From Pseudomonas fulva (GTDB taxonomy: Bacteria > Pseudomonadota > Gammaproteobacteria > Pseudomonadales > Pseudomonadaceae), in assembly GCF_023517795.1 (NCBI RefSeq), contig NZ_CP082928.1:2108001-2172000 (forward strand): a stretch of 64,000 nucleotides of DNA. The letters are read 5' to 3'. The notes beneath the pieces are model-generated. The model saw only the letters and a program-made list of their open reading frames with translations, was not told the DNA's origin and made no database searches. Below, piece by piece: positions 38,841 to 59,618 of this stretch (within the stretch, counting starts at the first letter, position 1; the number at the start of each line of letters is the position of its first letter). Made by a program: the position numbers and the translations under genes.

Positions 38841-39175
38841 GCACAACAAAAATAACAAGACACATCTGATAACAAGAACAAGACAACGGCTCTAGCATAA
38901 GAAAGACAAGAACGCAGAGACGCAGCTAACTGATTTCTTTGGAGAGGACCGCCCTCGGGCTTGTACCGCAACCGGGTCGAGAACAATAAAACTGCTTTGC
39001 AAGGCAGCGACAGACGGGTTGGATCTCAGGATCACGGCAACATCAGCGTCCAAACAAATCCGTTCGCTCTTGGCCTCCTTTGGAGGCCTCGGCTAAAACA
39101 AGAACAACAGGCCGGTAGCACTAATAAGAACGATGATTCGAACAAGATTTGGGGGAGCTTCGGCTCCCCCTTCTG
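38841..39175 (+). ncRNA. CrcZ/CrcY/CrcX-family small RNA (Hfq/Crc sequestration)
   Basis: About 335 nt from the predicted sigma-54 start to a strong terminator (gggggagc-ttc-ggctccccc type, 39151-39170, then ttct). It opens gcacaacaaa, as I recall for CrcZ, and carries six or more AANAANAA catabolite-activity motifs: 38845, 38851, 38871, 38982, 39097 and 39123. An internal hairpin ggcctcc-ttt-ggaggcc lies at 39072-39088. Known members are induced by CbrAB under poor carbon supply and titrate Hfq/Crc away from target mRNAs. CrcZ normally sits near cbrB/pcnB, so this copy is more likely CrcY or CrcX, or a relocated paralogue. Confidence 0.85.
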
Positions 39176-39503
39176 CTATCTGGCGTTCAGCCTTTCTTCC
39201 CGTTGCCCTTCATCCCATTTCGCCTCGAATCATCCACAGGATGCTGCTCTCCGGCACCCGGCTGGCGGTGACGCGCAGCTGCTGGTCAACCTGCATCGCA
39301 GCGCGTGCCTGGCAATCGCTGATCTGACGCGATCCTGCAGAAGCCGCGACCTTGCGGCAAATGGCCCGCGCCGAGGTTTTGCCGGGTAACCACCGTCGCT
39401 TCGCCCGGGATCAGGGCTCCCGCCGGGTGTGGATAACCCGATTGCCTGTGCTTAGGGGCAGAGCACCCGACCTTACCCGCCCATGAAGCGCCGACATGAA
39501 AAA
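39176..39503. other. 328 bp between the Crc-family RNA and gcd
   Basis: Short open frames exist on both strands (for example up to a stop at 39389 on plus and 39286-39540 on minus), but none shows a Shine-Dalgarno or known family. The minus-strand gcd terminator follows. I see no supportable gene. Confidence 0.5.
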
Positions 39504-51395: not shown

Positions 51396-51506
51396 GGGGC
51401 AGTCCGGCTGGGCAAAGGCGCCATTGTAACAGCGGGTGGTCGAAGGACACGCGGCTGATCTGCTATGGTCGGCGGCTTCGTTCGCGCTTTATTCAGGGAG
51501 ATACAG

Positions 51507-52085
51507 ATGCGCCTGTGCATTTTCTGCGGTTCCAATGCGGGCACCAATCCCGTCTATCTCCAGGCGGCCACCCACCTCGGCCAGACCCTCGCCAAAGCCG
51601 GCATCGGCCTGGTGTACGGCGGCGCCTCGGTCGGCCTGATGGGCGCGGTGGCCAACGCGGCGCTCGAAGCCGGCGGCGAAGTGATCGGTGTGATCCCCCG
51701 TTCGCTGTGGGAAAAGGAGGTGGCCCATACCGGCCTCGATGACCTGCGCATCGTCGACTCCATGCACCAGCGCAAGGCGCTGATGGCCGAACTGTCGGAC
51801 GGCTTCATCGCCCTGCCCGGCGGCGTCGGTACGCTGGAAGAGCTTTTCGAGGTGTGGACCTGGGCACAACTGGGCCACCACCAGAAACCTTGCGCACTGC
51901 TCAATATCAACGGTTACTACGACCGCCTCGCCGGGTTTCTCGATCATATGGTCGACGAGGCCTTCGTCAAGGCACCGCACCGCGAGATGCTGATCGTCGA
52001 GCAGGACATCGAGGCGCTGTTGGCGGCGATCGATAGCTACCAGGCACCCACCGTGGGCAAGTGGATCGGCAGGCAGGAAACCTGA
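51507..52085 (+). CDS. LOG-family nucleotide 5'-monophosphate phosphoribohydrolase
   Basis: 192 residues from ATG 51507 with aggga nine bases before. Rossmann-like LOG fold: [31 protein letters not shown], and the signature [16 protein letters not shown]. These enzymes release bases from cytokinin-type or other nucleoside monophosphates. Divergent from chlD, with only 111 bp between the starts. The physiological substrate in bacteria like this is not established. Confidence 0.92.
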
Positions 52086-52173: not shown

Positions 52174-52272
52174 AGAACCTTCTCCACCCGAATAACAGCG
52201 GCCAAGCGCTTCCAGCACTTGCATTCCCCCCGCTCCCTGGATTACTTTCGAGCCCATTCAACGGAGCCGCAC

Positions 52273-52404
52273 ATGTCCACAGCCCTGATCCTGAACGCCA
52301 CCCGCCTCGATGCAGCCTGCATCGTGATCGCGCGTGCCCAGGCATCCGTGGTCGCTGCAGCCTCGTATTTTTATGGGTATTGGTTTAGCCACAGGCGCGC
52401 CTGA
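52273..52404 (+). CDS. Leader peptide 1 of the DAHP synthase gene (aromatic attenuator)
   Basis: 43-residue open frame with ggag six bases before the ATG. Near the end it reads SYFYGYWFSHRRA: three Tyr, two Phe and one Trp within seven codons (52366-52386). The stop at 52404 is followed by a hairpin (52414-52438) and then a rho-independent terminator at 52456-52494. This is the layout of a translation-controlled attenuator sensing charged aromatic tRNAs. Confidence 0.8.
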   Translation: MSTALILNATRLDAACIVIARAQASVVAAASYFYGYWFSHRRA

Positions 52405-52455
52405 TACCCCACAGGCGCCCTAGCAACTCAGGGTCGCCACCAGACAGTTTCTCGA

Positions 52456-52494
52456 AACCCCCGGTCGGCCTCCCGACCGGGGGTTTTGTTTTTT
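52456..52494 (+). terminator. Attenuator terminator upstream of the DAHP synthase gene
   Basis: aacccccggtcgg / ccgaccgggggtt, 13-bp perfect stem, cctc loop, then ttttgtttttt. An upstream partly overlapping hairpin (ggcgccct, 52414, with agggtcgcc, 52430) could be the alternative fold. Confidence 0.9.
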
Positions 52495-52527
52495 CCGGCA
52501 CATCGATTGTTCACAGAGGATTTCACC

Positions 52528-52632
52528 ATGACCACATACGCCACCTACCAGACCTATTACCGCTACAGCTGGCGATTTACCGGCGCTCACGCCGCTCAAC
52601 CACTCAATCGAACATCCCATCGAGCCCGATAG
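52528..52632 (+). CDS. Leader peptide 2 of the DAHP synthase gene (aromatic-rich)
   Basis: 34-residue open frame, ATG 52528 after agagga. It begins MTTYATYQTYYRYSWRF: five Tyr, one Trp and one Phe in the first 17 codons. It lies between the attenuator and the DAHP synthase ATG (52676), ending 43 bases before it. No T-tract terminator follows; a GC-rich segment (gcgccgcgcgcgg and cccgcgccgg) could fold and hide the aroF-type Shine-Dalgarno gagg. Suggests a second, perhaps translational, control step. Confidence 0.7.
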   Translation: MTTYATYQTYYRYSWRFTGAHAAQPLNRTSHRAR

Positions 52633-52675
52633 TGCGCCGCGCGCGGTAACGCCCGCGCCGGCCGAGGAAATCACC

Positions 52676-53764
52676 ATGTCCGTAGCCGTCAATTCCCGCT
52701 CCACCGCCAAAGCCGCCGACCTGCACCTGGTCGCCCAGCCGTCCCGCCGCCACACCTCGCCGCTGCCCAGCGCCACCCAGTTGCGCGAAGAACTGCCGCT
52801 CGCCGCGGCCCTCGCCCGCCAGGTACAGCAACAGCGCCAGTCGATCCGCGCGATTCTCGATGGTCACGACCCGCGTCTGTTGGTAGTGGTCGGCCCCTGC
52901 TCCCTGCACGACGATGCCGCCGTACTCGAATACGCCGAGCGCCTGGCCGCCCTCAGCCAGCGGGTGGGTGATCGCCTGCTGCTGGTGATGCGCGCCTACG
53001 TCGAGAAGCCGCGCACCACGGTGGGCTGGAAGGGCCTGGTCTACGATCCGGCGCTGGATGGCAGTGGCGACATGGCCGAAGGCCTGCGCCGCTCGCGCAA
53101 ATTGATGCTCAAGCTGCTGGAGCTGGGCCTGCCGTTGGCCAGCGAGATCCTCCAGCCGCTGGTGGCCGGCTACTTCGACGACCTGCTCGGCTGGGCGGCG
53201 ATTGGCGCGCGCACCAGTGAATCCCAGGTGCATCGCGAGCTGGTCAGCGGTTTGGAGATGCCGGTGGGCTTCAAGAACGGCACCGACGGCAGCCTCGGCA
53301 TCGCCTGCGACGCCATGCGCTCGGCGGCCCATACCCACCAGCACTTCGGCATCGATGGCCACGGTCGCCCGGCGCTGGTGCACACCCACGGCAACCCGGA
53401 CACCCACCTGGTACTGCGCGGCGGTCACGGCGGGCCGAACCACGATGCCGCCAGCGTCGCCACCGCGCGCGCCGAGCTGGAGCGCCAGGGCATCGCGCCG
53501 CGCATCATGGTCGACTGCAGCCACGCCAACAGCGGCAAGAACCCGCTGCGCCAGCCCGAGGTGCTGAGCAGCGTGCTCGACCAGCGCATGGCCGGCGACG
53601 GCGCCCTGCGAGCGGTGATGATCGAAAGCCATCTATTCGACGGCGCCCAGAGCCTCGGCGGCGAGCTACGCTACGGCGTGTCGATCACCGACGGCTGCCT
53701 CGGCTGGGCTGGCACCGAACGCATGCTGGTGGACGCCGCCATCCGCATGCGTCATCTGGTCTGA
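52676..53764 (+). CDS. 3-deoxy-7-phosphoheptulonate (DAHP) synthase, AroFGH class
   Basis: 362 residues from ATG 52676, gaggaaatcacc before it. Class I DAHP synthase: LVVVGPCSLHDDAAVLEYA, MRAYVEKPRTTVGWKG, GFKNGTDGS, MVDCSHANSGK and ESHLFDGAQS supply PEP and metal ligands. First step of the shikimate pathway (PEP plus erythrose 4-phosphate). Feedback class cannot be read safely. Two aromatic-rich leader peptides and an attenuator precede it. In P. aeruginosa a DAHP synthase gene also sits between the ChlI-like gene and cobN, so this placement is conserved. Confidence 0.94.
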   Translation: MSVAVNSRSTAKAADLHLVAQPSRRHTSPLPSATQLREELPLAAALARQVQQQRQSIRAILDGHDPRLLVVVGPCSLHDDAAVLEYAERLAALSQRVGDRLLLVMRAYVEKPRTTVGWKGLVYDPALDGSGDMAEGLRRSRKLMLKLLELGLPLASEILQPLVAGYFDDLLGWAAIGARTSESQVHRELVSGLEMPVGFKNGTDGSLGIACDAMRSAAHTHQHFGIDGHGRPALVHTHGNPDTHLVLRGGHGGPNHDAASVATARAELERQGIAPRIMVDCSHANSGKNPLRQPEVLSSVLDQRMAGDGALRAVMIESHLFDGAQSLGGELRYGVSITDGCLGWAGTERMLVDAAIRMRHLV

Positions 53765-53768
53765 CGCC

Positions 53769-53839
53769 GTAGCCTGGGTCGAGCGTAGCGATACCGGGGG
53801 CACCCCTCCCGGGTGTCGCTGCGCTCGACCTCGGGCTAC
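53769..53839. repeat. Palindromic repeat gtagcc...ggctac
   Basis: Left arm begins gtagcctgggtcgagcg (53769), right arm cccgggtgtcgctgcg to cgggctac (53808-53839). The right arm core recurs at 45875. It overlaps the stop codon of the ABC-F remnant. Confidence 0.65.
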
Positions 53840-53943
53840 AAAAGCCGCTGGTACTGCCAATCCTGCGCCGTCCACTGCAAGCGATCGGTAATCGCCAATG
53901 CCTCGATAAACGCGGCGTCGTGAGACACCAGAATCAGCGCCCC
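53836..53943 (-). pseudogene. C-terminal remnant of an ABC-F ATPase gene
   Basis: Minus-strand frame to the TAG at 53836-53838 reads ALILVSHDAAFIEALAIT and then DRLQWTAQDWQYQRLL, the Walker B-proximal switch (LILVSHD) and tail of ABC-F/Uup-type ATPases. Upstream of about 53943 the frame loses all similarity and no ATPase core is present. Evidence of a deleted gene, leaving about 36 codons between repeats. Confidence 0.7.
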
Positions 53944-54146: not shown

Positions 54147-57100
54147 TCAGCTTTCTTCGCTGTCGAGCAACAGGTTTTCCAGCGCCTCGCGATACTCGCC
54201 CGGCTCCTGCCAGAGACCGCGTTGCTGGGCTTCGAGCAGACGCTCGATGATATCCTGCAGGGCGCCGGGGTTGTGTTGCTGGATGAAATCGCGGGTGCCC
54301 TTGTCCATCAGGTAGGCGTCGGTGAGCAGCGCGTACTGATGGTCGTCGACCAGCTCGCTGGTGGCGTCGAAGGCGAACAGGTAATCGATGGTCGCGGCCA
54401 GTTCGAAGGCGCCCTTGTAGCCGTGGCGCTTCATGCCCTCGATCCACTTCGGGTTGGCCGCACGAGCGCGCACCACGCGCCCCAGCTCCTGCTTGAGGGT
54501 GCGGATGCGCGGGGTGTCGGGCTGGCTGTTGTCACCGAAGTAGCTGGCCACCCTGGCGCCGCACAGGGTTTCCACCGCCGCCAGCATGCCGCCCTGGAAT
54601 TGGTAGTAATCGTTGGAATCGAGGATGTCGTGTTCGCGGTTGTCCTGGTTATGCAGCACCGCCTGCATGCGCTCCAGGCGCTCGGCGAACTGCTCGCGGG
54701 CCGGCGCGCCCTCGACGCCCTTGCCATAGGCGTAGCCGCCCCAGTTCAGGTACACCTCGGCCAGATCCGCGCGGTTTTCCCACAGGCGCTCTTCGATGGC
54801 GTTCTGCACGCCCGCGCCATAGGCGCCCGGCTTGGAGCCGAAGATTCTCCAGCCGGCCTGACGCCGTGCCTCGAGTTCGTCCAGCCCGCCGTCCTGCAGC
54901 GCCAGGGCTTCCTGCCAGACCCGGGCAGACAGCGGGTTCATGTCCGGCGCCTCGTCCAGATCGGCGACCGCCTGCACGGCGTCGTCGAACAGGCGGATCA
55001 GGTTGGCGAAGGCATCACGGAAGAAGCCGGACACCCGCAGGGTCACGTCGACCCGCGGGCGGCCGAGCTGCTCCAGGGGCAGCACCTCGAAACGCTCGAC
55101 CCGCCCACTGCCGGCCTGCCACACCGGGCGTACGCCCATCAGGGCCATGGCCTGGGCGATATCGTCGCCGCCGGTGCGCATGGTCGCGGTGCCCCACACC
55201 GACAGGCCGAGCTGGCGCAGGTGGTCGCCTTCATCCTGCAGGTGACGTTCGAGCAGGCGATCCGCCGCCTGCACGCCAAGGCGCCAGGCGGTCGGCGTGG
55301 GCAGGTTGCGTACGTCCACGGAATAGAAATTGCGCCCGGTCGGCAGTACGTCGAGGCGCCCACGACTCGGTGCACCACTCGGGCCGGAGGGCACGAAGCG
55401 GCCATCCAGGGCATCGAGCAGGCCGCGCATTTCGGCATCACCACAGGCGTCCAGCAGCGGGGCGATATGGCTGCGCAGGTTGTGCAATACGGCTGCGCTG
55501 AGCGGGCCGACTGATTCGCCACCGTCGATCAGCTGCAGGCCCAGCAGCTCAAGGCGCTCGCGGGTGTCACCGAAACTGCGCCAGGGCTCGTCGCTCAGCC
55601 CAGTCAGAACGTCAGGACGCGGGCCGCTCCACGGCGCCGCCATCTCGCAATCGAGGGGATCGAAATCGAGTGCCAAGTCGCTGGCCAAGGCACGCAGCAG
55701 GCTGGCATTGCCGCCCTGCCCGTCGCCACGTGGAATGCGCAGCAGCGCCAGCAGGGTGTCACGGCGCAGTTGCCCGGCTGGCGACTCGCCAAACACATGC
55801 AGGCCATCGCGAATCTGCGATTCCTTGAGGTCGCACAGGTAAGCGTCGAGCTGCGGCAGCCAGCTGGCAGGGTCGTCGTTGAGCTGCAGGCCCAGCTCAC
55901 GGTCGAGGCTGGCCTCGCGCACCTTCTGCAGGATCTCGCCGCGCAGCTCGGCGGCGCGGCGCAGGTCGAGCTGGCTGGCGTCGTAGTATTCGTCGGCCAG
56001 GCGCTCCAGATCGCGCAGCGGGCCGTAGCTCTCGGCGCGGGTCAGCGGCGGCATCAGGTGGTCGATGATCACCGCCTGGGTGCGGCGCTTGGCCTGGGCA
56101 CCTTCGCCGGGGTCGTTGACGATAAAGGGGTAGATATTCGGCAGCGCACCGAGGATCGCAGTCGGCCAGCAGCGTTCGGACAGCCCGACGCTCTTGCCCG
56201 GCAGCCATTCCAGGTTGCCGTGCTTGCCGACGTGGATCACCGCGTTGGCCCCGTATACGTGGCGCATCCAGCAATAGAAGGCCAGGTAGCCGTGGGGCGG
56301 CACCAGATCCGGGTCGTGGTAGACCGCTGCGGCATCGACCTGATAACCCCGTGCCGGCTGGATGCCGACGAAGGTCAGGCCGAAACGCAGGCCGGCGATC
56401 ATCAGCCGGCCTGCGCGGAACATCGGGTCGTTCTCCGGCGCGCCCCAGCGTTCCAGCACCGCCTGGCGATTGGCCTCGGGCAGGGCGGCAAAGAAGCGCT
56501 GGTAGTCGTCCAGCGCCAGGCTCTGCGCACAGGCCCGCAGGTCGAGGTTGTCGAGGTCGTTGGTCACGCCACCGAGCAGCCCATGAATCAGCGCGGTGCC
56601 GCTGGCCGGCAGGCCCTCGACCGGGTAGCCCCGGGCTTGCAGGGCCCGGAGGATATTCAGCGCCGCCGCTGGCGTATCCAGACCGACGCCGTTGCCGATA
56701 CGGCCATCACGGGTCGGATAGTTGGCCAGTACCAGGGCGATGCGTTTATCCACAGCCGGCAGGCGCTGCAGGTCAGCCTGACGGCGCGCCAGTTCGGCGA
56801 CGAAATCCATGCCCGGCAGGTGCGCGCGGTAACAAACCACATCGCTCTGGCTGCGTTCGCTGCGCCAGGCCAGGCCCTTGAAGCTGATGGGCCGGGTGAT
56901 CAGGCGGCCATCCAGCTCCGGCAGCGCGATATGCATGGCCAGGTCACGGGGGCCGAGGCCCTGGGCGTTGCCCTGCCATTGTTCTTCGCTGTCCAGCGCG
57001 CAGAGCGCCTGCAGCACTGGCACGTCACGGCGGAATGGCCGCGCCTGGGGCGACTCCGGGTTGGACTGGGCGAAGCCGGTGGTGTTGATGATCAGACTGG

Positions 57101-57875
57101 CGCCCGCGTCGTCGAGCCAGTCCTCGACCTGGGCCAGGCAGGCCGCCTCCTTGAGGCTGGCCACCGCGATGGGCAGCGGGTTGAGGCCCTGGGCCTGCAG
57201 GCGCTGGCAGAAGGTATCGACGAAGGCGGTGTTGGCCGCCTGCACATGGGTGCGATAGAACAGCAAGGCGGCAACCGGTGCATCCGCTCGCCAGTCGCCG
57301 CGCCAGTCCTGCAGCGAGGCATTGCCGATACGCGGGTGATAGAGGCCAACCCGCGGCAGCGGGTGCGGCGGCTGCCAGCCGTAGTCCCGGCCCAGGTAAC
57401 GGTCGGCGATGCAGTTGAAGAACTGCCGCGCGTTATCCACACCGCCCTGGCGCAGGTACTGCCACAGGCGTTCGGCATCGTCGGCGGTCACGTTGCCCAG
57501 CGCCGTGAGCTCGGGGTCGGGGTTATCGCAACCCGGCACCAGGATCAGCGTCTTGCCCTGCCCTGCCAGCTCCACCAGCCGCTCGATGCCGTAGCGCCAG
57601 TAGCTGACGCCGCCGTGCACGGAAATCATGATCACCTTGGCGTGCCGGAGCACCTGCTCGACATAGAAGTCCACCGAGGCGTTGTTGCCCAGCTGCGCCG
57701 GGCTGGCCAGGCGCAGGCTGGGGTAATCCTCGGGCAGATGGCGGGCGACTTCGGCCAGCAACGACAGGTGCGAATCACCGGTGCACAGCACCACCAGCTC
57801 GGCGGGGGTCTGGCCGAGGTCGGCGATGCTGTCGGCCGGCAGCGACTGGCCGGGCTGGGTACGCAGCAGGTGCAT
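54147..57875 (-). CDS. cobN: Cobaltochelatase large subunit CobN
   Basis: 1242 residues, ATG 57875. CobN inserts Co2+ into hydrogenobyrinic acid a,c-diamide with the AAA+ partners (here ChlD products). Features: ISVHGGVSYWRYGIERLVEL, VLANYPTRDGRIGNGVGLDT, AVIHVGKHGNLEWLPGKSVG and ETLCGARVASYFGDNSQPDTPR, all typical of the CobN/BchH family. The magnesium enzyme BchH is excluded by the cobalamin context (cobW, cobE, cobM, riboswitches). It follows cobW by 12 bases on the same strand, downstream of a B12 riboswitch. Confidence 0.96.
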   Translation of the reverse strand: MHLLRTQPGQSLPADSIADLGQTPAELVVLCTGDSHLSLLAEVARHLPEDYPSLRLASPAQLGNNASVDFYVEQVLRHAKVIMISVHGGVSYWRYGIERLVELAGQGKTLILVPGCDNPDPELTALGNVTADDAERLWQYLRQGGVDNARQFFNCIADRYLGRDYGWQPPHPLPRVGLYHPRIGNASLQDWRGDWRADAPVAALLFYRTHVQAANTAFVDTFCQRLQAQGLNPLPIAVASLKEAACLAQVEDWLDDAGASLIINTTGFAQSNPESPQARPFRRDVPVLQALCALDSEEQWQGNAQGLGPRDLAMHIALPELDGRLITRPISFKGLAWRSERSQSDVVCYRAHLPGMDFVAELARRQADLQRLPAVDKRIALVLANYPTRDGRIGNGVGLDTPAAALNILRALQARGYPVEGLPASGTALIHGLLGGVTNDLDNLDLRACAQSLALDDYQRFFAALPEANRQAVLERWGAPENDPMFRAGRLMIAGLRFGLTFVGIQPARGYQVDAAAVYHDPDLVPPHGYLAFYCWMRHVYGANAVIHVGKHGNLEWLPGKSVGLSERCWPTAILGALPNIYPFIVNDPGEGAQAKRRTQAVIIDHLMPPLTRAESYGPLRDLERLADEYYDASQLDLRRAAELRGEILQKVREASLDRELGLQLNDDPASWLPQLDAYLCDLKESQIRDGLHVFGESPAGQLRRDTLLALLRIPRGDGQGGNASLLRALASDLALDFDPLDCEMAAPWSGPRPDVLTGLSDEPWRSFGDTRERLELLGLQLIDGGESVGPLSAAVLHNLRSHIAPLLDACGDAEMRGLLDALDGRFVPSGPSGAPSRGRLDVLPTGRNFYSVDVRNLPTPTAWRLGVQAADRLLERHLQDEGDHLRQLGLSVWGTATMRTGGDDIAQAMALMGVRPVWQAGSGRVERFEVLPLEQLGRPRVDVTLRVSGFFRDAFANLIRLFDDAVQAVADLDEAPDMNPLSARVWQEALALQDGGLDELEARRQAGWRIFGSKPGAYGAGVQNAIEERLWENRADLAEVYLNWGGYAYGKGVEGAPAREQFAERLERMQAVLHNQDNREHDILDSNDYYQFQGGMLAAVETLCGARVASYFGDNSQPDTPRIRTLKQELGRVVRARAANPKWIEGMKRHGYKGAFELAATIDYLFAFDATSELVDDHQYALLTDAYLMDKGTRDFIQQHNPGALQDIIERLLEAQQRGLWQEPGEYREALENLLLDSEES

Positions 57876-58937: not shown

Positions 58938-59050
58938 GGTGGCCCCTGGCGTCTGCAGAAACGGCGAGCGGGCAATAGGATGGCAGGCACGAGCAGGGCT
59001 CACGCGAAGGCATCACCGGATCACCCCGCCCGGTTGTCGAAAGCGTTATC

Positions 59051-59215
59051 GAGGCAGGTCTCCTGGCTGGCAGGTCATGGCACGCGGCCGGCCTTCCCGG
59101 TCTCCCAGTGGCGATTGGCGACGCACTCGCTGCTTACAGTTGCGGGGGCAGCCACGGCGATCCGTGTTCCCTCTTGAACCTGTTAGAAGCCTTCTGAACA
59201 GGTTTCCTCTCCATG
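59051..59215 (-). promoter_or_regulatory. Cobalamin riboswitch in front of cobW-cobN
   Basis: On the minus strand: ttcaagagggaacacgg, gctgcccccgcaactgtaag, and near the end the B12-box agccaggagacctgcc (59053-59068), all highly conserved parts of the AdoCbl aptamer. It lies 114 bases before the cobW start. Expected to lower expression when cobalamin is plentiful. Boundaries approximate. Confidence 0.92.
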
Positions 59216-59319
59216 GCGACCCATGGAGAACCTCGAAGACCGCAAGGCTACGCAGAGCCTGGGTAACGGTCAATCGCGGCGCGACCTGCAGCATATTGAC
59301 GCTCTGGCCGCTTCGTGGT

Positions 59320-59510
59320 GTTCTTGCCCGGTTGTTTCAGGTGTCTCACGCCGCCGCGCGTGAGGTGAAACGGGAAGCCGGTTAGAGTCCGGCGCTGCCC
59401 CCGCAACGGTAAGCGAATGCCAGGATCGTTTTGGCCACTGTGCACACGCATGGGAAGGCCGATCCCTATCGCCGCAAGGCGATCGTCGTGAGCCCGGAGA
59501 CCGGCCTGAA
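59320..59510 (+). promoter_or_regulatory. Cobalamin riboswitch in front of cbtBA-cobE-cobM
   Basis: Plus strand: tgaggtgaaacgggaagccg, ctgcccccgcaacggtaagc, gggaaggcc and the B12-box gagcccggagaccggcctg (59490-59508). Ends about 110 bases before cbtB. Divergent from the riboswitch at 59051-59215; the two leaders are back to back, their promoters sharing about 100 bp. Confidence 0.93.
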
Positions 59511-59618
59511 TCCTCTGTTTGGCAACCCGCGGTGGGCGGGCACGCGCCGATCGCTGCCTGCTCGTGCGGGCTGTCTCGCCGTGTCCTGCTGTGCCGTTTA
59601 CCCCTGAGGTCTACGATC

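Follow-up and report, generated by a model that had tools for sequence, protein, structure and literature searches.

Biosynthetic operons such as trp, phe and his are controlled by leader-peptide transcription attenuators. Two short frames can also stand in series before a regulated gene, as do the mgtM and mgtP leaders of Salmonella mgtCBR and the two leader peptides of ermA. In the repY/repZ system of plasmid ColIb-P9, a translated leader and a pseudoknot are combined with coupled translation of the next gene. For aroF, a study on Shewanella lists an 'attenuator sensing tyr-tRNA', citing E. coli (PMC2659441), and another study proposes a single leader peptide with Phe-Tyr-Phe before aroF of Corynebacterium glutamicum (PMC4046766).

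Here we analyse a stretch of 64,000 nucleotides from Pseudomonas fulva (the window), in which two aromatic-rich leaders precede a gene for DAHP synthase. With the leader-peptide attenuators of trp, phe, his and aroF this locus shares a short leader carrying end-product codons, competing helices, an intrinsic terminator and a biosynthetic gene downstream; it differs from them in that all three aromatic amino acids are represented, an extra segment (D) serves the antiterminator and a second leader follows. Like mgtM/mgtP and ermA, it has two short frames in series before the regulated gene, but its leaders flank an intrinsic terminator and contain the same set of end-product codons. The likeness to repY/repZ lies in a translated leader, a putative pseudoknot and probable coupling to the next gene, whereas the sequence, the gene and the function are different and the candidate pseudoknot lies inside the leader frame. 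The core of leader 1 and the terminator also score above the gathering cut-off of the Rfam family P15. That family is filed as an sRNA; the present evidence points to a peptide attenuator leader instead. A suggestion based on synteny is that P15 may correspond to a riboswitch (PMC2527527). In the passages available from the openly licensed literature we found nothing on the leader pair, the pseudoknot or the coupling, and no mention that P15 acts as a peptide attenuator. We consider it likely that a two-stage switch precedes DAHP synthase, acting first on transcription through leader 1 and then on translation through leader 2.

Results

Anatomy of the locus

In the window, leader 1, an intrinsic terminator, leader 2 and the DAHP synthase gene are all present and follow one another in this order (Table 1). 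Re-reading of the sequence confirmed the coordinates given in the initial annotation. Leader 1 had been described as a frame of 43 codons ending in SYFYGYWF; the length is correct, but the real end is ...SYFYGYWFSHRRA. The strong terminator with a T-run that was placed behind this frame is a 16-pair stem (52453-52488) followed by Ts, and the second leader does have 34 codons and a Shine-Dalgarno sequence (SD) of its own. The product of the downstream gene was identified as DAHP synthase by the profiles NCBIfam aroFGH (425.5 bits, cut-off 173.2) and PRK12755 (496.7, cut-off 343), and the gene shows a pN/pS of 0.24 in an alignment anchored on a motif. In 123 of 135 loci, the 75 nt before leader 1 contain a match to the loose promoter pattern TTGnnn-N16-19-TAnnnT (a raw count). 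TTGA together with TAAGCT was found in 101 of 135 regions upstream of leader 1, and the P. fulva window is not one of these.

Table 1 Features of the leader region and the DAHP synthase gene, in window coordinates.
Feature	Coordinates	Strand	Basis
Promoter candidate: TTGCAT, 18 nt, TACTTT	52219..52248	+	Pattern match
Leader 1: SD GGAG 52263-52266, ATG 52273, 43 codons MSTALILNATRLDAACIVIARAQASVVAAASYFYGYWFSHRRA, stop TGA 52402-52404	52263..52404	+	Open reading frame and conservation
Full-length match to Rfam RF00627 (P15), from the aromatic core of leader 1 through the terminator stem	52362..52483	+	105.7 bits, gathering score 70
Helix A:B: GGGUAU 52375-52380 (in the Gly-Tyr-Trp codons) with AUACCC 52404-52409	52375..52409	+	85.1% of cells paired
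Helix B:C (ribosome on the Trp codon): GCGCCUG 52397-52403 with CAGGCGC 52412-52418	52397..52418	+	Fold of the window sequence; 85.6% of cells paired
Helix C:D, terminator-permissive: GGCGCCC 52414-52420 with GGGUCGCC 52431-52438	52414..52438	+	96.0% of cells paired
Intrinsic terminator: arms ~52455-52468 and ~52473-52486, T-rich tract to 52494	52453..52494	+	96.7% of cells paired; 4 pairs changed on both sides
Leader 2: SD GAGGA 52516-52520, ATG 52528, 34 codons MTTYATYQTYYRYSWRFTGAHAAQPLNRTSHRAR, stop TAG 52630-52632	52516..52632	+	Open reading frame and conservation
UGGCGAUUUA (Trp-Arg-Phe codons), then hairpin CGGCG-CUCA-CGCCG 52581-52594	52570..52594	+	Candidate pseudoknot at this place in most relatives
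Hairpin linking the leader-2 stop to the DAHP synthase SD	52633..52664	+	Folding compared with shuffles
DAHP synthase, 362 aa: SD GAGGA 52664-52668, ATG 52676, stop ends 53764	52664..53764	+	Sequence and profile matches

Several other features were recorded in the window. The gene upstream of leader 1 (51465-52085) encodes a TIGR00730 (LOG-type) protein (208.4 bits). Straight after DAHP synthase, at 53770-53840, an imperfect inverted repeat was spotted by eye (GGGTCGAGCGTAGCGATACC ... GGTGTCGCTGCGCTCGACC) and is perhaps a repeat element. A 30-codon frame on the minus strand (53836-53928; MSHDAAFIEALAITDRLQW...) presumably resembles the end of an ABC-type ATPase gene and is possibly a remnant. 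Beyond it lies a large minus-strand frame (54147-57875), which we take to be of the CobN type, and farther on two cobalamin riboswitches point away from each other with some 100 nt between them (59036-59225, minus strand; 59322-59523, plus strand). The CrcZ sRNA is found at 38843-39204 (234.5 bits).

Linkage of P15 to DAHP synthase

The Rfam family RF00627, listed as 'Pseudomonas sRNA P15', has a single match in the P. fulva genome, which covers the leader-1 core and the terminator. At E values up to 0.001, P15 was found in 136 of 149 Pseudomonas genomes, P. fulva included (135 above the cut-off; 13 without a match), and DAHP synthase was present at all 136 loci. The 20 listed loci that were given reversed are exactly those listed with a minus-strand P15 match, and DAHP synthase and the P15 RNA therefore lie on one strand. 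The 13 Pseudomonas genomes without P15 are also without this DAHP synthase, a 49-57% identical paralogue being all that was found; in the five paralogous loci checked, no aromatic-rich leader precedes the gene. When the search was widened to the order, 27 of 293 genomes had a match, 15 of them above the cut-off. Twenty of these 27 matches lie outside Pseudomonas (5 in the same family, 6 in family f36, all under the cut-off, and 9 in f43), and each of the 20 stands beside a DAHP synthase of 55-76% identity.

We weighed whether P15 is a trans-acting sRNA that sits upstream of the gene by happenstance. Rfam files it under sRNAs, and PMC2375449 has it among the sRNAs detected by Livny et al.; the linkage to one gene at 136 of 136 loci, the encoded peptide with its SD and the switch by ribosome position described below make such a coincidence highly improbable. 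P15 may have a role in trans in addition to that in cis.

Leader 1 as a transcription attenuator

The initial annotation had suggested comparing the leader across Pseudomonas genomes. Both frames were found in 135 of 136 loci, the remaining locus (L129) being cut by a contig end. Both leaders have an ATG behind an SD of at least three letters in all 135 loci and, as the annotation had stated for the window, each contains Tyr, Phe and Trp codons throughout. At the level of sequence, leader 1 is thus a short SD-bearing frame rich in end-product codons in 135 of 135 usable loci. The share of aromatic residues is 16.6% in leader 1 and 31.6% over the initial 20 codons of leader 2, against 3.2% over the initial 130 residues of DAHP synthase; part of the content of the leaders is by construction, because the frame-search patterns demanded Gly-Tyr-Trp codons in leader 1 and a string like Trp-Arg-Phe in leader 2. 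In the last 16 codons of leader 1, TAT and TTT are preferred (294:21 and 342:22), opposite to the usage in the first 130 codons of DAHP synthase, where the same ratios are 45:357 and 2:28.

Conservation at the level of the peptide, on which the annotation had staked its reading, held in part. The core of leader 1 has a pN/pS of 0.35 in frame against 2.34 and 0.73 in the other frames (46 representatives), favouring the frame, but leader 1 before the core (0.92 against 1.11 and 0.92) and the Tyr part of leader 2 (0.74 against 0.92 and 0.65; 40 representatives, compared ungapped though their length varies) do not favour it.

We next consider the helices, which were counted in 25 diverse leaders, family f36 not among them. 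An intrinsic terminator lies between leader 1 and the gene in the window and in these 25 leaders. Helix C:D has an antiterminator alternative, D:T1, formed by D and the terminator's 5' arm and loop (90.3% of cells paired). When helices A:B and C:D and the terminator are taken together, 8 cells have changes on both sides, the terminator accounting for 7, compared with 1.2 in shuffles (reached in 0 of 500). Covariation in B:C and D:T1 is no better than in shuffles (2 cells against 0.9; 107 of 500), though these helices are kept.

To follow the competition between the two folds, a ribosome was placed codon by codon along 157 leaders (155 distinct), and at each position the RNA beyond it was folded. 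Six were dropped as D or the terminator was not placed by the patterns, leaving 151 scored leaders in which two loci are counted twice. The probability of D:T1 minus that of D:C was +0.40 to +0.76 when the A site was anywhere from codon -5 to codon +1, counted from Trp, and -0.38 to -0.45 when it was at +2 to +5; at -10 to -7 neither fold prevailed (-0.09 to 0.03). When the B-C segment was shuffled (one shuffle each), the difference stayed between -0.02 and 0.36 and the switch was lost. Footprints of 10-17 nt (five sizes) shifted the border of the switch by at most two codons, and with the 17-nt footprint the Trp codon itself gave -0.18. In the window copy, the difference fell from +0.62 to -0.18 between the Phe codon and the codon that follows. 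In silico, these helices are mutually exclusive and are switched by a ribosome on the control codons. A ribosome on the stop codon of leader 1 left the two folds near even (0.37 for C:D, 0.43 for D:T1; antiterminator favoured in 85 of 151), and without a ribosome the antiterminator was favoured in 54 of 151 leaders, including the window copy (0.59 against 0.15).

At equilibrium, the complete terminator prevails in every ribosome state (0.95-0.97), and control at the first stage must therefore be kinetic. The foot of the terminator stem (CCCC) is seldom engaged; for Trp or Tyr, values above 0.5 were reached in 14-15 of the 155 leaders. The proposal that leader 1 is a peptide-controlled transcription attenuator is borne out in silico by the promoter-like pattern, the SD, the aromatic codons, the competing helices and a position-dependent switch that is absent from the shuffled control.

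Leader 2 and its candidate pseudoknot

Within leader 2, GCGATTTA is identical in 150 of 150 distinct sequences (135 from Pseudomonas and 15 of the 20 from outside), part of it being preset by the collection patterns, which fixed TGG, one G and TT in the Pseudomonas set and GATTTA in the farther set. A leader-2-like frame was found in 15 of the 20 loci outside the genus. Under the filter used, L164, L168, L169, L171 and L178 have no such frame, and L178 still carries TGGCGATTTA. We note that GCGAUUUA (52570-52579 and related loci) is kept in codons that are rare in DAHP synthase (CGA, UUU), and is kept even where the preceding Trp codon is lost (L167, L172).

A scan of named genomes with the f36 form of the leader-2 pattern gave 106 stretches, and the counts that follow are from the 80 listed. 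Among these matches, three are from Pseudomonas and the rest from Halomonas, Vreelandella, Chromohalobacter, Billgrantia and their kin. On look-up, Vreelandella, Chromohalobacter and Halomonas belong to the Halomonadaceae, with which family f36 is probably identical. DAHP synthase lies downstream in 76 of the 80 listed matches, the other 4 having only 143-333 nt left in their stretch; of the same 80, 77 have leader 1 and 79 have leader 2.

Behind the Trp codon, 124 of 150 sequences, namely 119 of the 135 from Pseudomonas and 5 of the 15 others, have the strings GCC[AG]CCTCCG and GGTGGC at fixed distances from TGG, without indels. The element fits an H-type pseudoknot in which CCGnUCGG would pair with CCGAnCGG (S1) and GCC[AG]CC with GGUGGC (S2). 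The pattern is absent from 26 of 150 sequences, including the window copy, which folds a 5-pair hairpin instead. For the scoring of pairs, 25 diverse rows were chosen to contain both strings, and S2 is therefore present there by selection. In S1, 90.0% of cells are paired, with a mismatch at the fourth pair in 17 of 25. Eight cells are changed on both sides, compared with 3.4 in shuffles (0 of 500); the pair types (9 against 8.0; 145 of 500) and the pairs changed on both sides (3 against 1.6; 26 of 500) stand out less. A register slid by +3 has a covariation score of 0.122, against 0.102 for the true register, though only 60% of its cells pair. The pattern-selected set is the better test, because its second strands were not fixed by the pattern. 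Among the matches listed, S2 reads GGTGG[CT] in 70 of 70 distinct sequences, and the first five pairs of S1 are paired in 89, 100, 100, 94 and 100% of these 70.

In nine loci submitted to Rfam, nothing scored over the cut-offs for the leader-2 element. Under stricter filters, the element was found in 1 of 369 genomes of the class, from family f36. Of sixteen chosen genomes, 9 match at E values up to 1, eight beside the place of P15 and one, weakly, elsewhere (E 0.78). An alternative pairing, UGGCG-YGCCR, has its partner in 22 of 28 short-type leaders, compared with a shuffled mean of 9.5 and maximum of 18 (two loci counted twice, kinship ignored).

These observations bear on the question of whether leader 1 is the sole regulator. 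Leader 2 would then be a bridging frame whose ribosomes shield the roughly 180 nt from the terminator to the gene against attack by Rho or RNase, with no sensing of amino acids. This would suit the 5 of 20 loci outside the genus that keep leader 1 with no leader-2 frame listed, the pN/pS of the Tyr part and the flat SD scans in Pseudomonas described below. Against it stand the aromatic excess over DAHP synthase in its first 20 codons, GCGAUUUA in 150 of 150 sequences and what would be a rigid pseudoknot right behind the Trp-Arg-Phe codons in 124 of them, and we regard it as unlikely.

Less probable still is that leader 2 acts as a Rho-dependent attenuator like those of mgtL and speF, its pseudoknot governing the access of Rho. 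The last 42 nt of leader 2 are indeed C-rich and G-poor (C/G 1.84, 132 loci), but a C-richness equal to that of the mean tail is also seen in 19.5% of control windows, and at the start of DAHP synthase C/G is 1.48.

From the leader-2 stop to the DAHP synthase start

The leader-2 stop adjoins the ribosome-binding site or start of DAHP synthase in both lineages. In the Halomonadaceae form, it lies -4 to +6 nt from the ATG in 66 of 78 loci among the matches listed; the start was picked by open frame, SD and second residue, and 2 of 80 loci gave no start. In Pseudomonas, the median distance from stop to SD is 34 nt and is filled by a hairpin. The hairpin has a mean energy of -21.5 kcal/mol, compared with -13.8 when shuffled, and is below its own shuffled mean in 126 of 129 loci. 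If the distance is counted across helices, no more than 3 steps separate stop and SD in 126 of 129 loci (window copy 1; mean of shuffles 7.0), and this effective distance is below its own shuffled mean in 128 of 129. Six of the 135 loci were left out of these counts as their spacing is below 30 nt, three of them having the stop beyond the chosen DAHP synthase start. The same closeness of stop and start is reached differently in the two lineages, and we therefore read it as translational coupling: the arrangement suggests that leader 2 is coupled to DAHP synthase.

Frameshifting at UUUAGC from leader 2 into DAHP synthase was also considered, and was rejected on the spacing, which is not kept modulo three in 135 loci; leader-2 stop and ATG are mostly 47, 48 or 49 nt apart (31, 32 and 14 loci).

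We then looked at access to the DAHP synthase SD. In Pseudomonas, its opening was independent of the position of the ribosome on leader 2 in three scans, all of them flat, and sequestration of the SD by leader 2 was rejected there: a leader-2 ribosome neither hides nor exposes the ribosome-binding site. In the Halomonadaceae form there is a passing effect. SD openness is 0.23-0.28 with the ribosome edge 21-36 nt past UGG, where the SD is about half paired with the pseudoknot strands, and 0.40-0.45 at 39 nt or more; it is 0.43 with the pseudoknot taken as formed (78 pattern-selected loci among the matches listed). Of the 61 GGAG-type DAHP synthase SDs among the matches listed, 59 read CGGAG, the complement of CUCCG in the pseudoknot, compared with 31 of 99 control open reading frames and 2 of 65 leader-2 SDs.

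This pattern recalls a translational attenuator of the erm type, in which a stall on Trp-Arg-Phe would keep the pseudoknot folded and the anti-SD (CUCCG) withheld, leaving translation on. The sign suits a biosynthetic gene, and the openness values and the enrichment of CGGAG agree with it. However, the pseudoknot was imposed rather than folded in the 0.43 figure, the SD reopens from 39 nt onwards so that the trap would be passing, and the related genomes behind the counts are not independent. Nor was there any effect in 117 long-type Pseudomonas leaders, where a stable hairpin stands against the SD. We hold this reading to be possible but doubtful.

Discussion

In the two-stage switch that we favour, a ribosome would follow RNA polymerase along leader 1 and would stall on FYxGYWF when Tyr-, Trp- or Phe-tRNA is scarce. 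The stall would allow B to pair with C, freeing D for the 5' arm of the terminator, and transcription would go on. With no stall, C:D would pair, the terminator would form and the released RNA would be 'P15'. The anatomy, its conservation and the competing helices are present in the sequences themselves; it is from these that we infer stalling of ribosomes and antitermination in cells.

At the second stage, leader 2 would be translated on the read-through mRNA. Its stop is close to the start region of DAHP synthase, adjoining it in the Halomonadaceae or facing it across the hairpin in Pseudomonas, a geometry suggesting that translation of DAHP synthase depends on, and would be coupled to, that of leader 2. 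The Tyr, Trp and Phe codons of leader 2 stand just before the pseudoknot or hairpin, and through them the coupling would sense the charging of the same tRNAs. The idea of leader 2 as a translational stage stands in outline (the leader is conserved, and its stop is beside the start region or joined to it by a hairpin), but hiding of the SD was not seen in Pseudomonas. With codons of all three kinds in each leader at 135 of 135 loci, the pair may integrate the three end products of the pathway, as the initial annotation had supposed. The overall reading of the initial annotation is partly supported; the identity with P15, the candidate pseudoknot of the relatives and the placement of stop and start were missing from it.

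Tentatively, the aromatic pool may be read twice on each mRNA, by the attenuator and then by a translation-gating leader that would be pseudoknotted in most relatives, with a band-pass in Pseudomonas. If this were true, transcription would open on a shortage of aromatic tRNAs, the enzyme would be made only while leader 2 can be finished, and the leader-2 stop would be handed across the hairpin to the ribosome-binding site of the enzyme.

The findings point to a likely role for P15, an RNA that was catalogued and left unexplained, and for the control of the first enzyme of the aromatic pathway. They also describe what would be a natural two-layer switch, with a conserved candidate pseudoknot within a translated leader and a hairpin joining its stop codon to the ribosome-binding site that follows. 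Because strains of Pseudomonas serve in the production of aromatic chemicals (PMC6882275), an understanding of both brakes on DAHP synthase may be of practical use.
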